Of a DNA stretch of 64,000 bases, positions 44,063 to 50,978 are shown piece by piece. The notes under the pieces are model-generated. The model ran no database searches, was not told the DNA's origin, and saw only the letters and a program-made list of their open reading frames with translations. Each line of letters begins with the position of its first letter. Positions within the stretch are counted from its first letter, which is position 1. The position numbers were made by a program, and so were the translations under genes. This stretch comes from Oceanobacillus luteolus (GTDB lineage: Bacteria > Bacillota > Bacilli > Bacillales > Amphibacillaceae), in the NCBI RefSeq assembly GCF_023715655.1, contig NZ_JAMBON010000004.1:1-64000 (forward strand), given 5' to 3'.

Positions 44063-44884
44063 CTAATCGTTGTATTCGAAAAAGTAGTCAATCGGAACGA
44101 ATAGACCCACTTTTCCATGTATATCATGATTCAACGTGGCGAAAATGACACCAATCACTTTACCATCTTTATTAATAATTGGACTTCCGCTGTTTCCTCG
44201 GTAAACAGGCGCTTGAATCATTAAAACCGGCTTCTTCCAACTTGATAATTCGGTATAGCCAATAATTGTCCCTTCGTTGGCTATACCATTAAAACGAAGC
44301 GGATTACCGATAAAATTAATTTTTTCATCCTCTGTAAAATCACTTGTTTCTGCTAACGTCAAGTATGGCAAGTTTTCACCATTTGTTTCAACAATTGCCA
44401 AATCAATATCGGGATATTCTGCGACTACCTTCCCTTGATAAAGTCCTTCTTCGGGAAATGCAACCGTTACACTTTCCTCCCCTTTGATAACATGGTGATT
44501 CGTAATAATCGTTCCGTCCTCATGGATCGAGAAGCCTGTTCCTTTACTGTCACCTGTTTCAATAACTACTACCGCTTCTTTATACTCTTGTATTTCTTCT
44601 TGCTGAGATAATCGAGTCGACGTAATTAAAAAATCAATTGCTGGAATTGAAAAGGTTTGTGGAAGTAAGGCAATTACATTAAACAACATCGCAAATGCAA
44701 TCACCCAAAAAATCCACTTAGGAAACGGACGCTTCGTCGTCGCCTCTTTTCTTTCTTTCGCACGCTGAATTGCTTTTTGACGCTCTTCCTCTACTAATTC
44801 ATATAGTTCTTCTTCATCAATTTCTTCATATAAATCTTCATCAATGACATCAGTCTTTTTTTCATTCTTTTCTTTATTCTCCAT
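44063..44884 (-). CDS. Membrane-anchored trypsin-like serine protease (S1C, no PDZ)
   Basis: 273 aa: an acidic N-terminal cytoplasmic stretch with a Glu-rich helix, one transmembrane helix (about 53-75), then a trypsin-like domain with the triad His in TNHHVIKG, Asp in DIDLAIVE and Ser in RGNSGSPI. HtrA/DegP-like fold, but the chain ends after the protease domain, so there is no PDZ module. The ATG at 44884 (or GTG two codons before) starts 11 nt after the ABC exporter gene bmrD, so it is probably in the same antibiotic-responsive operon. Confidence 0.87.
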   Translation of the reverse strand: MENKEKNEKKTDVIDEDLYEEIDEEELYELVEEERQKAIQRAKERKEATTKRPFPKWIFWVIAFAMLFNVIALLPQTFSIPAIDFLITSTRLSQQEEIQEYKEAVVVIETGDSKGTGFSIHEDGTIITNHHVIKGEESVTVAFPEEGLYQGKVVAEYPDIDLAIVETNGENLPYLTLAETSDFTEDEKINFIGNPLRFNGIANEGTIIGYTELSSWKKPVLMIQAPVYRGNSGSPIINKDGKVIGVIFATLNHDIHGKVGLFVPIDYFFEYND

Positions 44885-44895
44885 ACGCACCCCGC

Positions 44896-46932
44896 CTATG
44901 AGACACTTGCCCGAACTCTACCTTGTTGCATCTGATACATTTGATAATACAAACCTTTTTCTTCAATTAGTGTATCATGATTACCGCGTTCTTTGATAGT
45001 TCCACGTTCAAGTACAATAATGCGATCTGCGTCTTGAATCGTTGATAGACGATGGGCAATGACCAGCGTAGTACGGTTTTTTTGGAGCACCTCCAGTGCA
45101 TGCTGAATCACACTTTCCGTTTCTGTGTCCATATTCGCTGTCGCTTCATCTAATATTAAGATTGCCGGATCGAATGCAAGGGCTCGAGCAAAAGAAATCA
45201 ACTGCCTTTCACCCAGTGAAAATGTGCTCCCACCCTCGGTGACGATTTCATCATAACCCTTAGGCAATCTTTTAATAAATCCTGTTGCACCAACGGCTTC
45301 TAAAGCTTTAATCGCTCTTTCTCTGGAAATGGCTGGGTCATTCATCGTGACATTCGAGAGTATCGTTCCCGTAAATAAAAACGGATCTTGAAGTACTATT
45401 CCCATATGGCTTCGTACTTGCTGTCTGGATAATTCTTTTGTGGAATAGCCATCAATGGTGATGTTACCTTTTTGTGGGTCGTAAAATCGGAACAGCAGGT
45501 TCATGATTGAACTTTTCCCTGAGCCTGTATGGCCGACAAAGGCTGCAGTTTCACCAGGTTTCACTTCAAATGAAATATCCTTCAACACATCATCTTCACC
45601 GTTATAAGAAAACGTCACCTGATCAAAAACCACGTGTCCACGATATCGGTTGATTTTACTGTTCTGGATAGCTTCTCCTTTATGATTCATCAGTTCAAAT
45701 ACACGGTGGCCTGCCACACGTGCCTGTTCAATAAGCGGCAACTGATTAACAATATCTGTTACAGGTTCAAATAGACGGGTAATATAATCCACAAAAGCGT
45801 AAAGCATCCCGATGGAAATTATACTCGTCAGATTGAGTGAACCCGAACCAAAATACCAAATGAAACCAACAAAGGTAATATTCCTTAACACTGTTACTAA
45901 ATTATAAGAAGTTAATGCGCTCAAACGAACTAGCTTCCTTTGATACGTAAAATGCCGCTCATTGAGCTCTTCGAATTCATCTTGTGTACTTTTTTCTCGA
46001 TTGAAAGCCTGGATAATTGGCATGCCTTGAATTGCTTCATTGATCTTCCCATTAATATCACTGATTGTTGCACGAATGACAGTGTTATATTTCGTTCCAA
46101 AATATTGATAACCTTTCATCCATAAAAAGATGACAGGTATTAAAATTAAACACATTGCTGCAAGTCGAGCATCCAAAATGAACAAAGCGATGAAAATCCC
46201 TGTCATATACACTATACTCGATACAATTATCGATAATACACGTTCATACAGGTCACGAATTGCTTCTGTATCATTCGTTATCCGGGAAACAATCGTTCCA
46301 GCTGGCCTATCAATGAAGTAATTGATCGGAATACGTTGGGTTTGTGCAAACAAATCCATACGCATCTTTTTAATGATTTGATTGGAGGCTTGCTGCAAGA
46401 GATACGTCTCAAAAAATTTAAACACACCGGCTATAAGCAGAAGTACCATATATAATACTAAGAGCAGGATGATGGGGCGTTGTTCCGGTTCAAAAAACGC
46501 ATACATTTCTTGAAGGTTTAATTTTATTGCATCGTAAGTAAGAACATCCTCACCGAATTCAATACTGATCTGGCTATCCCCCACTTCCCTAACACCAGAG
46601 AGCGGCGCTTGATCATCAATCATGTAATAGGATGTACCAACTTGCATTAAGGTGTGTGGTTCTCCAACCACTTCATCTGTTTGCAACAAACGGTCGACTC
46701 GTTTATAATACTTGTCATCATAAGCAATCGTATAACGATCGTTATCCTCCACTACTTCCTGCCAGTAGCCCTCCACGCCCAAAATATGATCATCAATTAC
46801 TGTTTTAGCTATAAATGGGCCAGCAAGCTCTAACGTTACGGCAATTGCTAAACAAATCAATCCTATAAAAATCCCTTTTTTATAATGAAGCGCGTATTGA
46901 AATAGTCTTCTTTCTGTTGATTTCTTTTTCAT
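44896..46932 (-). CDS. bmrD: Heterodimeric multidrug ABC exporter subunit, BmrD/YheH-like
   Basis: 678-aa half-transporter: six-helix membrane domain with a large extracytoplasmic insert between the first two helices (about residues 45-150), typical of YheH; then an ATPase with Walker A GHTGSGKSS, signature FSLGERQLISF and Walker B ILILDEATANMD (catalytic Glu present). Its start overlaps bmrC by 4 nt (ATGA). With BmrC it should form one active and one degenerate ATP site. Substrates are probably lipophilic drugs and ribosome-targeting antibiotics, by analogy with B. subtilis BmrCD. Confidence 0.9.
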   Translation of the reverse strand: MKKKSTERRLFQYALHYKKGIFIGLICLAIAVTLELAGPFIAKTVIDDHILGVEGYWQEVVEDNDRYTIAYDDKYYKRVDRLLQTDEVVGEPHTLMQVGTSYYMIDDQAPLSGVREVGDSQISIEFGEDVLTYDAIKLNLQEMYAFFEPEQRPIILLLVLYMVLLLIAGVFKFFETYLLQQASNQIIKKMRMDLFAQTQRIPINYFIDRPAGTIVSRITNDTEAIRDLYERVLSIIVSSIVYMTGIFIALFILDARLAAMCLILIPVIFLWMKGYQYFGTKYNTVIRATISDINGKINEAIQGMPIIQAFNREKSTQDEFEELNERHFTYQRKLVRLSALTSYNLVTVLRNITFVGFIWYFGSGSLNLTSIISIGMLYAFVDYITRLFEPVTDIVNQLPLIEQARVAGHRVFELMNHKGEAIQNSKINRYRGHVVFDQVTFSYNGEDDVLKDISFEVKPGETAAFVGHTGSGKSSIMNLLFRFYDPQKGNITIDGYSTKELSRQQVRSHMGIVLQDPFLFTGTILSNVTMNDPAISRERAIKALEAVGATGFIKRLPKGYDEIVTEGGSTFSLGERQLISFARALAFDPAILILDEATANMDTETESVIQHALEVLQKNRTTLVIAHRLSTIQDADRIIVLERGTIKERGNHDTLIEEKGLYYQMYQMQQGRVRASVS

Positions 46933-48680
46933 GCTCCGCTATCCCCCAGTCGCTCCAACTGCTGCTGTTCATATTGTTCCTTGTACCAGCCATTTTGTTT
47001 TAACAGCTCTTCATGGGTTCCTTGCTCGGTTATTTTTCCATTGTCAAGGACAATAATTTGATCAGCATGTGTTACCGCTGATAACCGATGAGCTGCAATA
47101 AACGTCGTTTTATTTTTTCTTTCTTTCCGCAAATGTTGGATGATCATGGCTTCCGTCTTTCCATCTACAGCGGATAAGGAGTCATCCAGAATTAATATTT
47201 CGGGATCCTTAATAAAAGCCCGCGCCAATGCTACCCGCTGCTTCTGACCACCCGACAATGTAATTCCACTTTCACCAACTTGGGTATCCAACCCGTCGGG
47301 AAGTTGTTTTATATCATCAAGAAAATGGGCTAAATCTAATATGCGATAAATCTCCTCATCCGTCGCATCTTCTTTCCCATATTGGATATTTTCACGAATC
47401 GTTTTTGAAAACATCATCTGATCCTGCGGGACATAACCAATCCAATTGCGAAGCTCCGCTAACTCCAGCTGCTCTATAGGAATACCAGAAAAAATGATAC
47501 TGCCCTTCATTCCTGAATATTGTCTCAACATCAATTTAAATAAAGTTGTTTTTCCTGCTCCTGTTTTTCCAACAACACCAATCGTTTCTCCCTTTTTCAC
47601 ATGCAATTCTATAGATTTCAACTGATTGTACTCTGTCCCCGGATAGGAAAACGTCACTTGATTGAAATCAATCGCATCCACACCGCGCAGCTGTTTCCCC
47701 TGTTCAGGATTCTGGACATCCGCTTTATAACTCATCGTGTCCTCAATCCGATCAAGTGAGGCATTCCCACGCTGTAGTATATTAATCAGTTCACCAACAG
47801 CGAACATTGGCCAGATCAACATTCCTAAGTAAACATTAAATGTAACCAAGTCACCTAACGTCATCTTGTTCTCAAAAACGAGAAAAGCTCCATATCCTAA
47901 TCCAATCGTATAAGAAAGCCCAACGAGGATTTTAATCGTCGGTTCAAATAAAGCATCAATTTTTGTCACTTCCATATTTTTGAGATAAACGTCTTCTGTC
48001 ATCTTGTCAAACCGATTCAATTCTTGCTCCTCTTGAACAAACGCCCGGATGACACGTACACCGCGAATAGATTCAAGCACTTCATTATTCATATTTCCAA
48101 ACGCGTCTTGAGCCTTCATGAACCGAGAATGAATGGCAGAGCCGTATTTATTCATGACAACCGCCATGATAGGCAATGGCAGAAGAGCGGCCAATGTCAA
48201 TTGCCAACTAATCGTAAAGCCCATCATACCGATAATCATAATCATGAAAATACTGGAATCAACGAGAGTCAGAACCCCAAATCCAGCTGTTTGACTAATT
48301 GCTTTTAAATCGTTGGTTGCCCTTGCCATCAAGTCACCAGTTCGATACTTACCGAAAAAAGTTGGAGTCATTTTAAGAAAATGCGTCATTAACTTTGTAC
48401 GCAACCATTTCTCCAAAATGACCGCACCACCGAATAACGTATAATCCCATAAATATGAAATCGTATAATGGATGACGATAAGTGCTAAATATAGAAGGAT
48501 GATGAATTGTAAACTCTCCCAAGTTAATGTTTCGTATTGAATCTGGTCAATCGTATAACCTATTATCTTTGGAGGAATTAAACCGATCGCACTCGCTGTA
48601 CAGAGCGCAATAATTGCAAACATATAACGTTTCCAATAAAACTTGAAAAACCAATCCAGTTTCTTAAATACTTGAAACAT
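46929..48680 (-). CDS. bmrC: Heterodimeric multidrug ABC exporter subunit, BmrC/YheI-like
   Basis: 583-aa half-transporter with six N-terminal helices and an ATPase: Walker A GKTGAGKTT, signature LSGGQKQRVALARA and Walker B ILILDDSLSAVD. The catalytic glutamate after Walker B is aspartate (DDS), so this subunit supplies the degenerate site, exactly the asymmetry known for BmrC. The ATG at 48680 follows GTGGGTGG. Preceded by a leader ORF and terminator, so expression is likely controlled by attenuation. Family length matches YheI (about 585 aa). Confidence 0.9.
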   Translation of the reverse strand: MFQVFKKLDWFFKFYWKRYMFAIIALCTASAIGLIPPKIIGYTIDQIQYETLTWESLQFIILLYLALIVIHYTISYLWDYTLFGGAVILEKWLRTKLMTHFLKMTPTFFGKYRTGDLMARATNDLKAISQTAGFGVLTLVDSSIFMIMIIGMMGFTISWQLTLAALLPLPIMAVVMNKYGSAIHSRFMKAQDAFGNMNNEVLESIRGVRVIRAFVQEEQELNRFDKMTEDVYLKNMEVTKIDALFEPTIKILVGLSYTIGLGYGAFLVFENKMTLGDLVTFNVYLGMLIWPMFAVGELINILQRGNASLDRIEDTMSYKADVQNPEQGKQLRGVDAIDFNQVTFSYPGTEYNQLKSIELHVKKGETIGVVGKTGAGKTTLFKLMLRQYSGMKGSIIFSGIPIEQLELAELRNWIGYVPQDQMMFSKTIRENIQYGKEDATDEEIYRILDLAHFLDDIKQLPDGLDTQVGESGITLSGGQKQRVALARAFIKDPEILILDDSLSAVDGKTEAMIIQHLRKERKNKTTFIAAHRLSAVTHADQIIVLDNGKITEQGTHEELLKQNGWYKEQYEQQQLERLGDSGA

Positions 48681-48710
48681 CTTTCCACCCACTCTCTAAA
48701 TTCCCCGAAT

Positions 48711-48741
48711 AAAAAACACACGTGTCTATCGACTCGTGTGT
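48711..48741 (-). terminator. Leader (attenuator) terminator of the bmrCD-like operon
   Basis: On the minus strand ACACACG-A-GTC, a GATA loop and GAC-A-CGTGTGT form a stable stem, followed by TTTTTTATT. It lies between the leader peptide and bmrC, so it must be bypassed for bmrCD expression. Its 5' arm CACACG (48735-48740) can instead pair with CGUGUG at 48775-48780, a possible 6-bp antiterminator. Confidence 0.85.
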
Positions 48742-48785
48742 CAGAAATCAATAATATACATAAAAAAATACGGCCACACGTCTTT

Positions 48786-48822
48786 AGAGTGACCTTCACT
48801 CTATGCTACAAATAAAGGTCAC
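48786..48822 (-). promoter_or_regulatory. Mutually exclusive hairpins at the end of the leader ORF
   Basis: Two alternative stems share bases: GTGACCTT (48815-48822) with AAGGTCAC (48789-48796), and AGAGTGA with TCACTCT across a 3-nt loop (48786-48802). The leader stop codon TGA lies inside both. A ribosome stalled on, or waiting at, the end of the leader ORF would decide which stem forms. Confidence 0.65.
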
Positions 48823-48870
48823 ATTTGATATTTTATTTAATGAATATACAACTAATGAATTCATCTTCAT
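48796..48870 (-). CDS. 24-aa leader peptide of the bmrCD-like operon (BmrB-like role)
   Basis: ATG-AAG-ATG start, 24 codons, product MKMNSLVVYSL followed by NKISNVTFICSIE. Very strong ribosome site GGAGGAGG directly upstream (48873-48880), so efficient translation is expected. The ORF ends inside a hairpin and is followed by an intrinsic terminator before bmrC. B. subtilis bmrC is preceded by the leader gene bmrB, which controls it by ribosome-mediated transcription attenuation. I see no clear resemblance in peptide sequence, and BmrB is longer, so the role is inferred from layout. Confidence 0.75.
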   Translation of the reverse strand: MKMNSLVVYSLNKISNVTFICSIE

Positions 48871-48906
48871 GACCTCCTCCTGAACGAAAATTAAGATACC
48901 TTAATA

Positions 48907-48934
48907 ATTATAGTATTTTGAATATATTTGTCAA
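48907..48934 (-). promoter_or_regulatory. Consensus SigA promoter of the bmrCD-like operon
   Basis: TTGACA (48929-48934) and TATAAT (48907-48912), both perfect, 16 nt apart. The transcript would start near 48899, giving a ~30-nt leader before the peptide ORF. Confidence 0.85.
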
Positions 48935-48952
48935 TCACTTTTATATTTTTCA

Positions 48953-48986
48953 CACAAAAAAAGAATAGCTCATATGAACTATTCTT
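48953..48986 (-). terminator. Intrinsic terminator of the YvyF-like gene
   Basis: AAGAATAG (48961-48968) pairs with CTATTCTT (48979-48986), with an inner TCATATGA, followed on the minus strand by seven T. Confidence 0.8.
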
Positions 48987-49001
48987 CATGGAATATTATT
49001 T

Positions 49002-49253
49002 TTAACTGGAGTTCGATTTATTTTCAATTGTTGAACGCTGATTCCGTTTATTACCATAATTAATCATCCGTTCTACTTTCAAATATTCAATTCTAGTAGC
49101 TACAACAATATCATGAACAGATACAAAAGGGTTTTTCCTGATGAAATTCCATACTTGTTCGCTATCATGCAAGCATGTCGCACATAACATAAAGGGACTA
49201 TCAACCAATAAATCCTGACACAATCGACAATTTCGAACAATTCTACTCTTCAT
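49002..49253 (-). CDS. YvyF-like zinc-ribbon protein
   Basis: 83 aa with two CxxC pairs, CRLC (about residue 9) and CATC (about 24), probably a zinc ribbon, followed by a helix-turn-helix-like stretch NPFVSVHDIVVATRIEYLKVERMI. The layout resembles YvyF, a small protein normally in the flgM flagellar cluster. No flagellar genes lie here, so it may be a paralogue with another job. The ATG at 49253 has GGGGTGAG upstream; a longer frame exists to 49313. Confidence 0.7.
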   Translation of the reverse strand: MKSRIVRNCRLCQDLLVDSPFMLCATCLHDSEQVWNFIRKNPFVSVHDIVVATRIEYLKVERMINYGNKRNQRSTIENKSNSS

Positions 49254-49416
49254 CTTCTCACCCCTTATTTTCTTTCCCCTATCATACAGTACTCCGTATA
49301 GTAATACAAGCACTTATTTTAAATTTTTAGAAAAGTTGACCTATACTTTCTTACTTCTTTAGCTAATACTTTTTGGCATATTTTCTCTTATATCGTCGAA
49401 ATATAATAAAGAAGCA

Positions 49417-49445
49417 GGATATTTTTTCATGTCTAATCCATACTA
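49417..49445 (+). promoter_or_regulatory. SigG-type promoter of the germination operon
   Basis: CATACTA (49439-49445) is a perfect SigG -10 element, with GGATA (49417-49421) 17 nt upstream as a near-consensus -35. It lies 30 nt before the first gene. Germinant receptor operons are known to be transcribed in the forespore by SigG. Confidence 0.6.
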
Positions 49446-49475
49446 TGAAATATACAAACCTTAGGTGGGGTAATT

Positions 49476-50978
49476 ATGCGACCAGCAAAGAAAAATAATG
49501 GAAAGTCTGCACTTCCTATGAGTGTAGATCAACTAAAAAACAAAGTGGAATCCCTCGTTATCAACAGCCAAGACTTGAATTACACTACATATCAGCAGAA
49601 TGAAAAACAAATTGCGGTATTTTATATCCCATTTCTCATTGATCACACAAAACTAGAAGAAAGTCTCTTAAATCCGTTACTATCCATGGAGTCCGATTGG
49701 TCAACTGATACCATATTAAGTGGAATACCACTTGCATCAGGTAAAACGACTACAAAATTGGAAGATACAGTTAATGGTTTAAATAAGGGTGAAGTTTTTT
49801 TATATTTAGAACAAGATAAACAGCTCATCACTTATAAACTGTCAAAAAGTGAAAAACGTGCCCTCGAAAGGGCTGAAACAGAAGCGATTGTCATAGGTCC
49901 CCAGCTAGCCTTTACAGAATCAATGCAAAGCAATTTAAACGTAATCAGCTGGCGATTAAACACTCCGGATCTAGCACGGGAAAAAATAATGGTAGGCGAA
50001 CGGAATCCGAAAGAAGCGAGGATTATTTATCTAAAATCAGTTGCAAACGAAACAGATGTCAATACCATGCGGCAACGCCTGAATGACCTTAAAGTGGATA
50101 TGATTGAAGATATTCATATGTTAAAACAATATATTCTCGATAACTCCACTTCCGTCTTTCCTCAATACGTTGCAACTGAATTGGTCGACCGAGCGACCTA
50201 CGCCGTAAAGGAAGGAAAAATTATTGTACTTGTTGAGGGTAGTCCACTGGCTATGGTTGCCCCTTCTACTTTTTTTAGTTTTTTCGAATCGACGGAGGAT
50301 CGCTATTTTCATTGGAATCTGAGCAGCTTTATTCTTTCTCTACGATTTCTTGCTGCATTCGTTACCTTGATGTTGACGCCGATGTATGTCGCTGCAACTA
50401 CTTTTCATTATGAACTGATTCCATCACAACTTCTCATGTCCATCGGTCAATCGCGGGCAGCGGTTCCTTTTCCACCAATTCTTGAAGTAATCATTATTGA
50501 ATTGGTCATCGAACTCCTCCGGGAAGCGGGAGCGAGACTGCCTACTAAAGTAGGTCAAACAATTGGTATTGTTGGTGGTGTTGTTGTCGGTACAGCAGCT
50601 GTTCAAGCCGGAATCACCAGTAATATTCTGATTATCTTAGTTACACTAAGTGCCTTGGCGTCCTTCTCGACACCCAATTATGTTATGGGGAATACACTCC
50701 GATTTGTCCGATTTCCATTGATTATATTTGCTAGTATGTATGGGATAATCGGAATCATGTTTGGTATATGCTTATTAGTCATTCACCTTGTTCGTTTAGA
50801 ATCACTTGGCAGACCATATCTAACTCCATTATATCCATTGAGGTTAGCTGATTTTAATAAAGTATTTTTCCGTCTGCCGGAGCAGAAACAAGGTAGACGC
50901 TTTTTATCCTACAGACTTAAGGATAAACATACTTACGGGAAAAATAAAGCAACGGTGAAAAAAGATAATGAAAAGTAG
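49476..50978 (+). CDS. Spore germinant receptor A subunit (GerA/GerKA family)
   Basis: 500-aa A subunit. The hydrophilic N-terminal domain (about 1-275) contains NLNVISWRLNTPDLAREKIMVG and GERNPKEARIIYLKSV, both conserved in GerAA-type proteins. The C-terminal half has about five helices (LSSFILSLRFLAAFVTLMLTP and following) with PTKVGQTIGIVGGVVVGTAAVQAG. Part of an A-B-C receptor in the spore inner membrane. Which germinant it senses cannot be told. Weak GGTGGGG ribosome site. Confidence 0.9.
   Translation: MRPAKKNNGKSALPMSVDQLKNKVESLVINSQDLNYTTYQQNEKQIAVFYIPFLIDHTKLEESLLNPLLSMESDWSTDTILSGIPLASGKTTTKLEDTVNGLNKGEVFLYLEQDKQLITYKLSKSEKRALERAETEAIVIGPQLAFTESMQSNLNVISWRLNTPDLAREKIMVGERNPKEARIIYLKSVANETDVNTMRQRLNDLKVDMIEDIHMLKQYILDNSTSVFPQYVATELVDRATYAVKEGKIIVLVEGSPLAMVAPSTFFSFFESTEDRYFHWNLSSFILSLRFLAAFVTLMLTPMYVAATTFHYELIPSQLLMSIGQSRAAVPFPPILEVIIIELVIELLREAGARLPTKVGQTIGIVGGVVVGTAAVQAGITSNILIILVTLSALASFSTPNYVMGNTLRFVRFPLIIFASMYGIIGIMFGICLLVIHLVRLESLGRPYLTPLYPLRLADFNKVFFRLPEQKQGRRFLSYRLKDKHTYGKNKATVKKDNEK

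Follow-up and report, generated by a model that had tools for sequence, protein, structure and literature searches.

The stretch of DNA under study (the window, 64,000 nucleotides of Oceanobacillus luteolus) carries bmrC and bmrD, the genes for the two halves of an exporter, and raises the question of how the short leader upstream of bmrC governs their transcription. A comparable leader is known from Bacillus subtilis, where lincomycin, chloramphenicol, and erythromycin raise the expression of bmrCD and lincomycin acts through the bmrB leader (PMC4191407). Its authors describe bmrBCD as the first multidrug ABC exporter under this type of ribosome-mediated control, without settling what the anti-antiterminator does (PMC4191407; Reilman et al. 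2014). The leader of the window is quite likely a ribosome-mediated transcription attenuator of the bmrB kind, composed of a chain of mutually exclusive helices.

The Locus and Its Exporter Genes

In accordance with the original prediction, a promoter, a ribosome site, an ORF of 24 codons, the hairpins, a terminator, and the complementarity of CGTGTG (48780-48775) to CACACG (48740-48735) are all present on the minus strand (table 1). The promoter (TTGACA 48934-48929, spacer of 16, TATAAT 48912-48907) is the sole site within 48500-49500 that matches the consensus in 12 of 12 positions. The terminator-like site preceding it is predicted to close the upstream gene, parting it from the leader promoter. 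Further upstream, a small ORF on the minus strand (49002-49313) shows paired Cys motifs (CRLCQ...CATC) and its product looks like a zinc-ribbon-like protein; a similar ORF is located upstream in locus L044.

By sequence, the closest solved structures to the two exporter halves are B. subtilis YheI and YheH, that is, BmrC and BmrD, and the proposal that a transcription attenuator with a leader ORF precedes the genes of a BmrC/BmrD exporter is supported. Among the named BmrC proteins, the one from O. alkalisoli is closest (84% identity). As the start of bmrC, ATG 48680 is more likely than GTG 48692, since most orthologues displayed start at the equivalent of the former.

Table 1. Features of the bmrC leader and its surroundings, in coordinates of the window
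Feature	Coordinates	Strand	Evidence or properties
Terminator-like site of upstream gene	48960..48987	-	12-pair stem and T run, -13.1 kcal/mol
Promoter, sigma-A type, TTGACA-16-TATAAT	48907..48934	-	12/12 consensus matches
Shine-Dalgarno (SD) GGAGGAGG of leader ORF	48873..48880	-	Sequence
Leader ORF, 24 codons and TGA, peptide MKMNSLVVYSLNKISNVTFICSIE	48796..48870	-	ATG 48870 to TGA 48796
Segment 1, overlaps SD and start codon, pairs with segment 2	48869..48877	-	Duplex -12.0 kcal/mol; A1 covariation
Segment 2, within ORF	48810..48822	-	Partner: segment 1 (via 48822-48814) or segment 3
Segment 3	48789..48801	-	Partner: segment 2 (13 bp) or, via 48794-48789, segment 4
Segment 4 as used in helix 4:5 (includes 48775-48780)	48775..48787	-	Duplex with 48738-48726, -11.5 kcal/mol; 4:5 covariation in relatives
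Segment 4 core GTGGCC; hairpin 3:4 is predicted terminator 1	48772..48777	-	Fold -8.5 kcal/mol; covariation
U tract (T7) of terminator 1	48762..48768	-	Sequence
Segment 5 (inner 5' arm, loop, and first 3'-arm base of terminator 2)	48726..48738	-	Pairing with segment 4
Terminator 2 hairpin (5:6)	48717..48740	-	Fold -11.9 kcal/mol; covariation in relatives
U tract (T6) of terminator 2, predicted 3' end of attenuated leader RNA	48711..48716	-	Sequence
bmrC, exporter half	46929..48692	-	Top PDB hit by sequence: B. subtilis YheI (E 2.9e-236)
bmrD, other exporter half	44896..46932	-	Top PDB hit by sequence: B. subtilis YheH (E 7.6e-226)

Six Segments and Five Helices

The leader contains six segments on the minus strand, and neighbours can pair in five ways (1:2, 2:3, 3:4, 4:5, and 5:6). 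The SD region GGAGGTCAT (48877-48869) is complementary to GTGACCTTT (48822-48814) within the leader ORF. Hairpin 2:3 (GTGACCTTTATTT/GAGTGAAGGTCAC) has 13 bp, -16.2 kcal/mol, and a loop of 8 bases. Downstream, GGTCAC (48794-48789) faces GTGGCC (48777-48772), followed by T7 (48768-48762). This terminator-like hairpin had been overlooked in the original prediction, where a single terminator was described; the latter (48740-48711) is indeed present. Judged from the letters, two terminator-like hairpins with U tracts precede bmrC, and termination is predicted at them.

The competing hairpins of the proposed switch are likewise there, but they belong to a five-helix chain in which the SD of the leader itself is hidden by one helix, and this had gone unrecognized. 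The antiterminator of 6 bp turns out to be the window's form of a conserved helix, 4:5, whose best pairing in the window is interrupted and amounts to 10 bp (48787-48775 with 48738-48726, -11.5 kcal/mol). An early idea that the 6-bp antiterminator is not conserved was dropped after helix 4:5 had been recognized.

Two mutually exclusive hairpins had been placed at the end of the ORF, and both exist, but the second one (AGAGTGA/TCACTCT, 48802-48786, 7 bp, -6.9 kcal/mol), which competes with 2:3 for segment 3, is not conserved. A local hairpin at this position (at least 6 pairs, loop of 3-6, using segment 3) occurs in only 4 of 105 leaders, the other three having different, A+T-rich stems, and the exact letters of the window's hairpin were found in no relative fetched.

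Conservation among Relatives

Of the 159 genomes of the family, 116 encode a BmrC at E <= 1e-200. From the 190 collected regions upstream of bmrC, 49 were repeats of leaders already in the set. The automatic parser recovered a leader in 122 loci and none within 1 kb in 19; at least one of these 19 negatives (L010/L116) does have a leader, 808 nt upstream, which the parser missed, and L020 is masked by N. In total 121 leaders were aligned, and 105 of them, with 34 genus labels (the database's genus codes or, for some loci, NCBI genus names), were kept for the tests. The 16 dropped leaders were gapped in core columns (10) or judged misparsed or without segment 2 (6). Alignments A1 and A2 comprise 41 and 62 of the 105; no genus label contributes more than four leaders, and limits were set on length.

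The consensus of the leaders reads AAAGGAGGTCAC - ATG - ORF with GTGACCTTC near its end - GGTCAC - TCTGTGGCCTTTTTGT - GCATACGTCA..GACGTATGC-TTTTTT. The GGAGG of the SD is invariant in all 41 leaders of A1, and the leader peptide has a median length of 25 aa (range 14-36 among the 105). A promoter-like TTGAC...TANNWT pair lies at most 90 nt before the SD in 72 leaders, and a U tract follows segment 4 in 92, being absent from 13. Lack of the ORF and hairpins in relatives had been named as an outcome that would speak against the switch; both are conserved in relatives, and the switch passes this part of the check.

Searches with model R1, in which the window sequence is included, matched at E <= 0.001 in 106 of the 159 family genomes and at E <= 0.01 in 16 of the 28 genomes of the window's genus. 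A covariance model built from 37 leaders outside that genus hit the window at 48878-48765 with 47.6 bits (E 2.1e-7), the runner-up in the 64 kb reaching 16.0 bits (E 0.51); "outside" refers here to the database's genus, at least two of the 37 (L004, O. manasiensis, and L033, O. limi) being named Oceanobacillus at NCBI. The element of the window belongs with the leaders of its relatives, beyond a chance match.

Seven of the dropped leaders (L014, L019, and L021-L025) were examined apart. Pairing 1:2 beats shuffles in 7/7 and pairing of segment 2 with downstream RNA in 6/7, and the downstream RNA pairs with terminator 2 better by at least 1.5 kcal/mol in only 3/7. Some Oceanobacillus leaders (L018, L019, and L021-L025) encode peptides very rich in Gln and Asn, for instance MNNLQRQINQMNQSNQTKQNMILWPPKTKGCSFF of L019, and have no U tract behind segment 4.

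In the own-partner test, a segment should fit the partner from its own leader better than a partner from another genus. Among the 105 leaders, the own duplex was the better one for 1:2 in 29 of the 34 labels (Wilcoxon p 1.2e-5), for 2:3 in 32 (p 5.1e-9), for 3:4 in 31 (p 3.7e-7), and for 4:5 in 30 (p 1e-7). Six nonneighbouring pairs, taken as controls, showed no such advantage (13-20 of 34 labels, p 0.06 to 0.88). One of them, 1:4, reaches on average the stability of a real helix (-11.1 kcal/mol, against -6.1 in shuffles), segment 1 resembling segment 3, and yet the own-partner advantage is absent (17/34).

The alignments point the same way. On A1, helices 1:2 and 3:4 together have 93.4% of cells paired and 23 double-change cells (5.0 shuffled, 0/500). 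Helix 2:3 is weaker, with 86.3% paired and 13 double-change cells (7.5 shuffled, 5/500), and its covariation score was equalled in 29/500 shuffles. On A2, 85.3% of cells are paired in 4:5, with 45 double-change cells (11.4 shuffled, 0/500), and 98.4% in 5:6, the best-paired helix, with 60 (14.1 shuffled, 0/500). When the partner columns were shifted by 1-3, the share of paired cells dropped to 13-64% in 5:6 and to 26-52% in the three other counts. Because kinship alone can lift such counts above shuffles and the helices share segments, the counts are read jointly with the own-partner test, as support for the whole chain. The overlapping helices would thus form a mutually exclusive antiterminator and anti-antiterminator which co-vary in the relatives, and related bacteria appear to share this set of competing hairpins despite differences in sequence.

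Proposed Mechanism and Folding

With no ribosome on the leader, segment 1 (the SD) would pair with segment 2 (in the ORF), hence 3:4 would form and the polymerase would halt at terminator 1; polymerases escaping it would halt at terminator 2 (5:6). A ribosome translating quickly to the stop codon would cover segment 2, with termination as in the ribosome-free case. A ribosome stalled in the first codons would cover segment 1 and free segment 2, which would pair with 3 before 4 is transcribed and thereby block terminator 1. The freed segment 4 would pair with 5, terminator 2 would be disturbed, and bmrCD would be transcribed. The stall may be triggered by drugs acting on the large subunit, a signal suggested by the case of B. 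subtilis. We infer termination at either site, the kinetics, the ribosome stalling, and the antibiotic signal from this arrangement.

Predicted folds of the RNA up to segment 3 depend on the position of the ribosome. With a ribosome covering the start, 2:3 reaches at least 4 expected pairs in 101/105 leaders; in the free RNA it does so in 29/105, 1:2 forming in 79, and with a ribosome on the stop codon in 14/105. On these counts, a ribosome held early would commit the RNA to 2:3, whereas an absent or finishing one mostly would not. Equilibrium folding with terminator 1 complete favoured 3:4 in 71/105 leaders even with a ribosome on the start, and therefore antitermination would have to be kinetic, depending on the order in time. 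Equilibrium folding as the only test of the switch was rejected, as the states were not separated, and the folding of the RNA up to segment 3 was used instead. A pause signal would help the ribosome to catch up with the polymerase; the NusG pause motif TTNTTT is present in the loop between segments 2 and 3 in 36/105 leaders against 28.7 in shuffles (sd 3.7), which is no clear enrichment.

Deviations of the Window and Alternative Readings

In the window, the stop codon directly adjoins segment 3, which would therefore also be masked by a ribosome at the stop, and the free RNA is predicted to fold into 2:3 and 1:4. The resting state of the window may be leakier than in the relatives, because of the strong 2:3, the position of the stop codon, the extra 7-bp hairpin, the interrupted 4:5, and the fold of the free RNA. 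In the nearest named relative, O. alkalisoli (L111), promoter and terminator 2 are kept and the leader ORF and terminator 1 have apparently been lost (by eye), apparently a natural partial loss of the switch.

The same features could be taken further, with a switch that is drifting in the window and kept partly on at all times by the 13-bp stem of 2:3, its 8-nt loop, and the stop codon beside segment 3. The free fold into 2:3, the state of the O. alkalisoli leader, and the better scores of 90 of the 108 family-search matches listed are in line with this. All segments, the promoter, the SD, the ORF, and both U tracts are nevertheless intact in the window, and such drift is considered unlikely.

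A simpler two-state switch, as originally drawn, would consist of one terminator (48740-48711) and one antiterminator of 6 bp (48780-48775 with 48740-48735); the ribosome would be sensed by the hairpins at the end of the ORF, and the T7 would play no part. It would suit the standing of terminator 2 as the best-paired helix (98.4% of cells) and the U tract missing behind segment 4 in 13/105 leaders, as well as in six leaders of Oceanobacillus judged by eye (L019 and L021-L025). However, 3:4 shows covariation and has a U tract behind it in 92/105, the second sensor hairpin (48802-48786) exists in its form only in the window, and helix 4:5 extends beyond 6 bp, which makes the two-state switch decidedly unlikely.

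Tandem intrinsic terminators without ribosome control, damping a strong promoter, or control by an unknown protein, are a very improbable explanation: the promoter is perfect, the terminators are two, and no known RNA family was found in the Rfam scan of 48500-49400 (three matches at E <= 5, the best with 19.9 bits against a gathering score of 45), but the conserved ORF co-varies with the SD and there is the experimental precedent of B. subtilis. An amino-acid attenuator of the trp kind, stalled by shortage of a charged tRNA at runs of one codon, shares the logic of 1:2, 2:3, and 3:4, and the leader peptides are rich in Asn and Ile (10.4 and 10.3%), but it is rejected as scarcely credible, as no run of a signal residue is seen (longest identical run 1-2 in 88/105 leaders, 3 in 15, longer in 2), the peptides diverge freely in sequence, and the controlled gene is an exporter. 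The chain of exclusive helices read by a translating ribosome remains the preferred reading.

The Reading Frame of bmrB in B. subtilis

In genome G566, BmrC matches the YheI chain of B. subtilis in the PDB with 100% identity, and at its bmrC locus (L267) a GTG ORF of 162 bp ends exactly 119 bp upstream of bmrC and is the annotated bmrB, by the geometry given in the original description (PMC4191407). An ATG behind AAGGAGGG, 16 bases before the annotated GTG and in another frame, opens an ORF of 23 codons. Around it the elements follow in the same order as in the other leaders, with SD:ORF -15.8, 2:3 -16.9, 3:4 -10.8, 4:5 -12.7, and the terminator -20.5, and no U tract is located behind 3:4.

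The ATG frame is the one that is found again in relatives. All 25 Bacillus leaders have such an ORF of 23-32 codons with an SD, and in all 25 the SD:ORF pairing exceeds shuffles; seven more distant Bacillus loci have it as well (23-35 codons, 7/7, a total of 32/32). Among the 11 leaders closest to B. subtilis, the annotated GTG is kept in 7, and the annotated frame reaches about the annotated stop in 4, runs past it in 1, and is closed early in 6. By this comparison the annotated frame of 53 codons does not appear to be conserved, and the leader gene annotated as bmrB in B. subtilis probably represents the wrong reading frame. The idea that the window holds a shorter version of bmrB probably fails as well, the conserved B. 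subtilis ORF itself having 23 codons.

Published experiments bear on the question from two sides. In the mutant of bmrB without induction, the 5' UTR carries four changes as well, by which other starts or ribosome sites are lost (PMC4191407), and therefore it cannot discriminate between the frames. Against the 23-codon reading, an in-frame GFP fusion to the annotated frame fluoresced from an overexpression plasmid, though not from the chromosome (PMC4191407).

A wider proposal is about evenly balanced between right and wrong. It holds that the Bacillales leaders of bmrC are one undescribed RNA class, in which the leader's own SD starts a domino of five exclusive helices coupling two terminators to one ribosome; that B. 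subtilis bmrB is a member, its real leader being the 23-codon ATG ORF (MPRNLRVYQTVSYWRGKPFVLFS) and not the 53-codon frame; and that a control step is added, except in the Oceanobacillus/Virgibacillus clade, by a second mini-ORF that closes with (Gly/Ser/Asp)-Gly-stop just before bmrC.

Mini-ORFs, Orphan Leaders, and Other Observations near bmrC

The second mini-ORF lies just upstream of bmrC in B. subtilis (L267) and in 106 of 179 unique bmrC loci and is absent from the window. It was searched for as an ORF of 12-45 codons whose last residue is Gly and whose end lies 8-70 nt ahead of bmrC; the displayed cases have, for example, 17-27 codons. The last two residues of 108 mini-ORFs are GG in 50, SG in 42, and DG in 10. 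Any ORF in the 8-70 nt zone is found in 120/179 loci, and in a control stretch 90-152 nt upstream of bmrC 34 loci have an ORF, 3 of them ending in Gly. The mini-ORF occurs in 42/42 loci of g88 (Bacillus and other loci), 14/14 of Halobacillus, 8/8 of g61 (Terribacillus), and 0/22 of the window's genus. Possibly, it serves as a second leader peptide or as a coupling ORF.

The family search also gave matches without bmrC. Twelve were fetched; 10 have a leader with an ORF, and 2 (L245 and L246) are unconvincing. In nine of the 10 (L236-L244), the fetched stretch contains no bmrC ORF, and the leader precedes the protease gene found behind bmrD in the window, so they offer no clear case of the switch serving another exporter. 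The protease ORF downstream of these nine resembles window 44063-44890. The orphan leaders L235 and L202 likewise have the ORF and hairpins without a bmrC ORF in the fetched stretch behind, and in L202 a stretch resembling the start of bmrC persists (by eye). In L237, L238, L239, L080, and L082, an ORF of 45-48 aa behind the leader resembles the first residues of BmrC (by eye), for instance MFNAFRKLDWFVNQYIKRYKVVFIIILNFERNSPLIDKAVLVVSKSEM in L237; it precedes a bmrC in L080 and L082, and in the other three the fetched stretch holds no bmrC. In L002, L010, L039, L052, and L058, GC-rich stretches with common wording between leader and bmrC (by eye) look like copies of a short interspersed repeat.

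Comparison with Known Systems

The trp attenuator of E. coli, also described in PMC4191407, works by the logic of 1:2, 2:3, and 3:4, as the window is predicted to do. The window differs from it in having no signal codons, in a chain that extends to 4:5 and 5:6, and in a segment 1 that is its own SD; the codon run for a sensed amino acid that marks the trp type was not found in the leader.

The nearest system is bmrB itself, which precedes orthologous exporter genes and has a leader ORF and a terminator with antiterminator and anti-antiterminator (PMC4191407). Further marks of the bmrB kind are a promoter controlled by AbrB and read-through that requires translation of the leader and rises with lincomycin, erythromycin, and chloramphenicol. 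The window has a second, upstream terminator, predicted from the U tract behind 3:4, which is lacking in B. subtilis, and model R2 does not find the B. subtilis leader (L267) at E <= 1, the sequences being too distant. The annotated bmrB is a GTG ORF of 53 codons containing the terminator, whereas the ORF of the window has 24 codons and ends (48796) before both terminators, so that no terminator lies inside it. As the annotated Bacillus frame is not conserved, the terminator inside the ORF is doubted as a defining feature. The leader of the window is regarded as a variant that probably works like bmrB rather than as a plain member.

In the vmlR leader of B. subtilis, a tiny uORF lies within the anti-antiterminator stem, and a lincomycin-stalled initiating ribosome breaks the stem and frees the antiterminator (PMC9226507). 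It differs in that the uORF has three codons and an SD that is said to be single-stranded, in having one terminator and an additional hairpin covering the vmlR SD, and in the gene controlled (PMC9226507); in the window the SD is a stem arm and the ORF has 24 codons. The tlrB (yxjB) leader of B. subtilis is alike in its leader peptide, drug-stalled ribosome, and intrinsic terminator, but the ribosome stalled by tylosin at an RYR motif occupies bases of the terminator stem directly and NusG pausing is required (PMC6851288), a motif for which is not clearly enriched in the bmrC leaders. In the tandem attenuators of Salmonella mgtCBR there is also more than one attenuation step per leader, but two ORFs answer two signals independently (PMC3641672); in the window, one ORF is present and the two predicted terminators are linked by shared segments.

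Among the matches listed from open-licence literature, no title or beginning of an abstract dealt with such leaders beyond B. subtilis, with a double terminator, or with the alternative frame. Switches of this kind have been described before; what looks new is a chain that includes two terminators and begins with the SD as its first strand, and the class seems wider than the one known case. The comparison gives the role of the anti-antiterminator a testable form, in which 1:2 would hide the leader's own ribosome site and set the resting state, and it indicates how one ribosome could disarm two successive terminators. It also predicts the translated frame of B. subtilis bmrB and supplies more than 100 natural variants of the switch, comparable by structure where sequence comparison fails.
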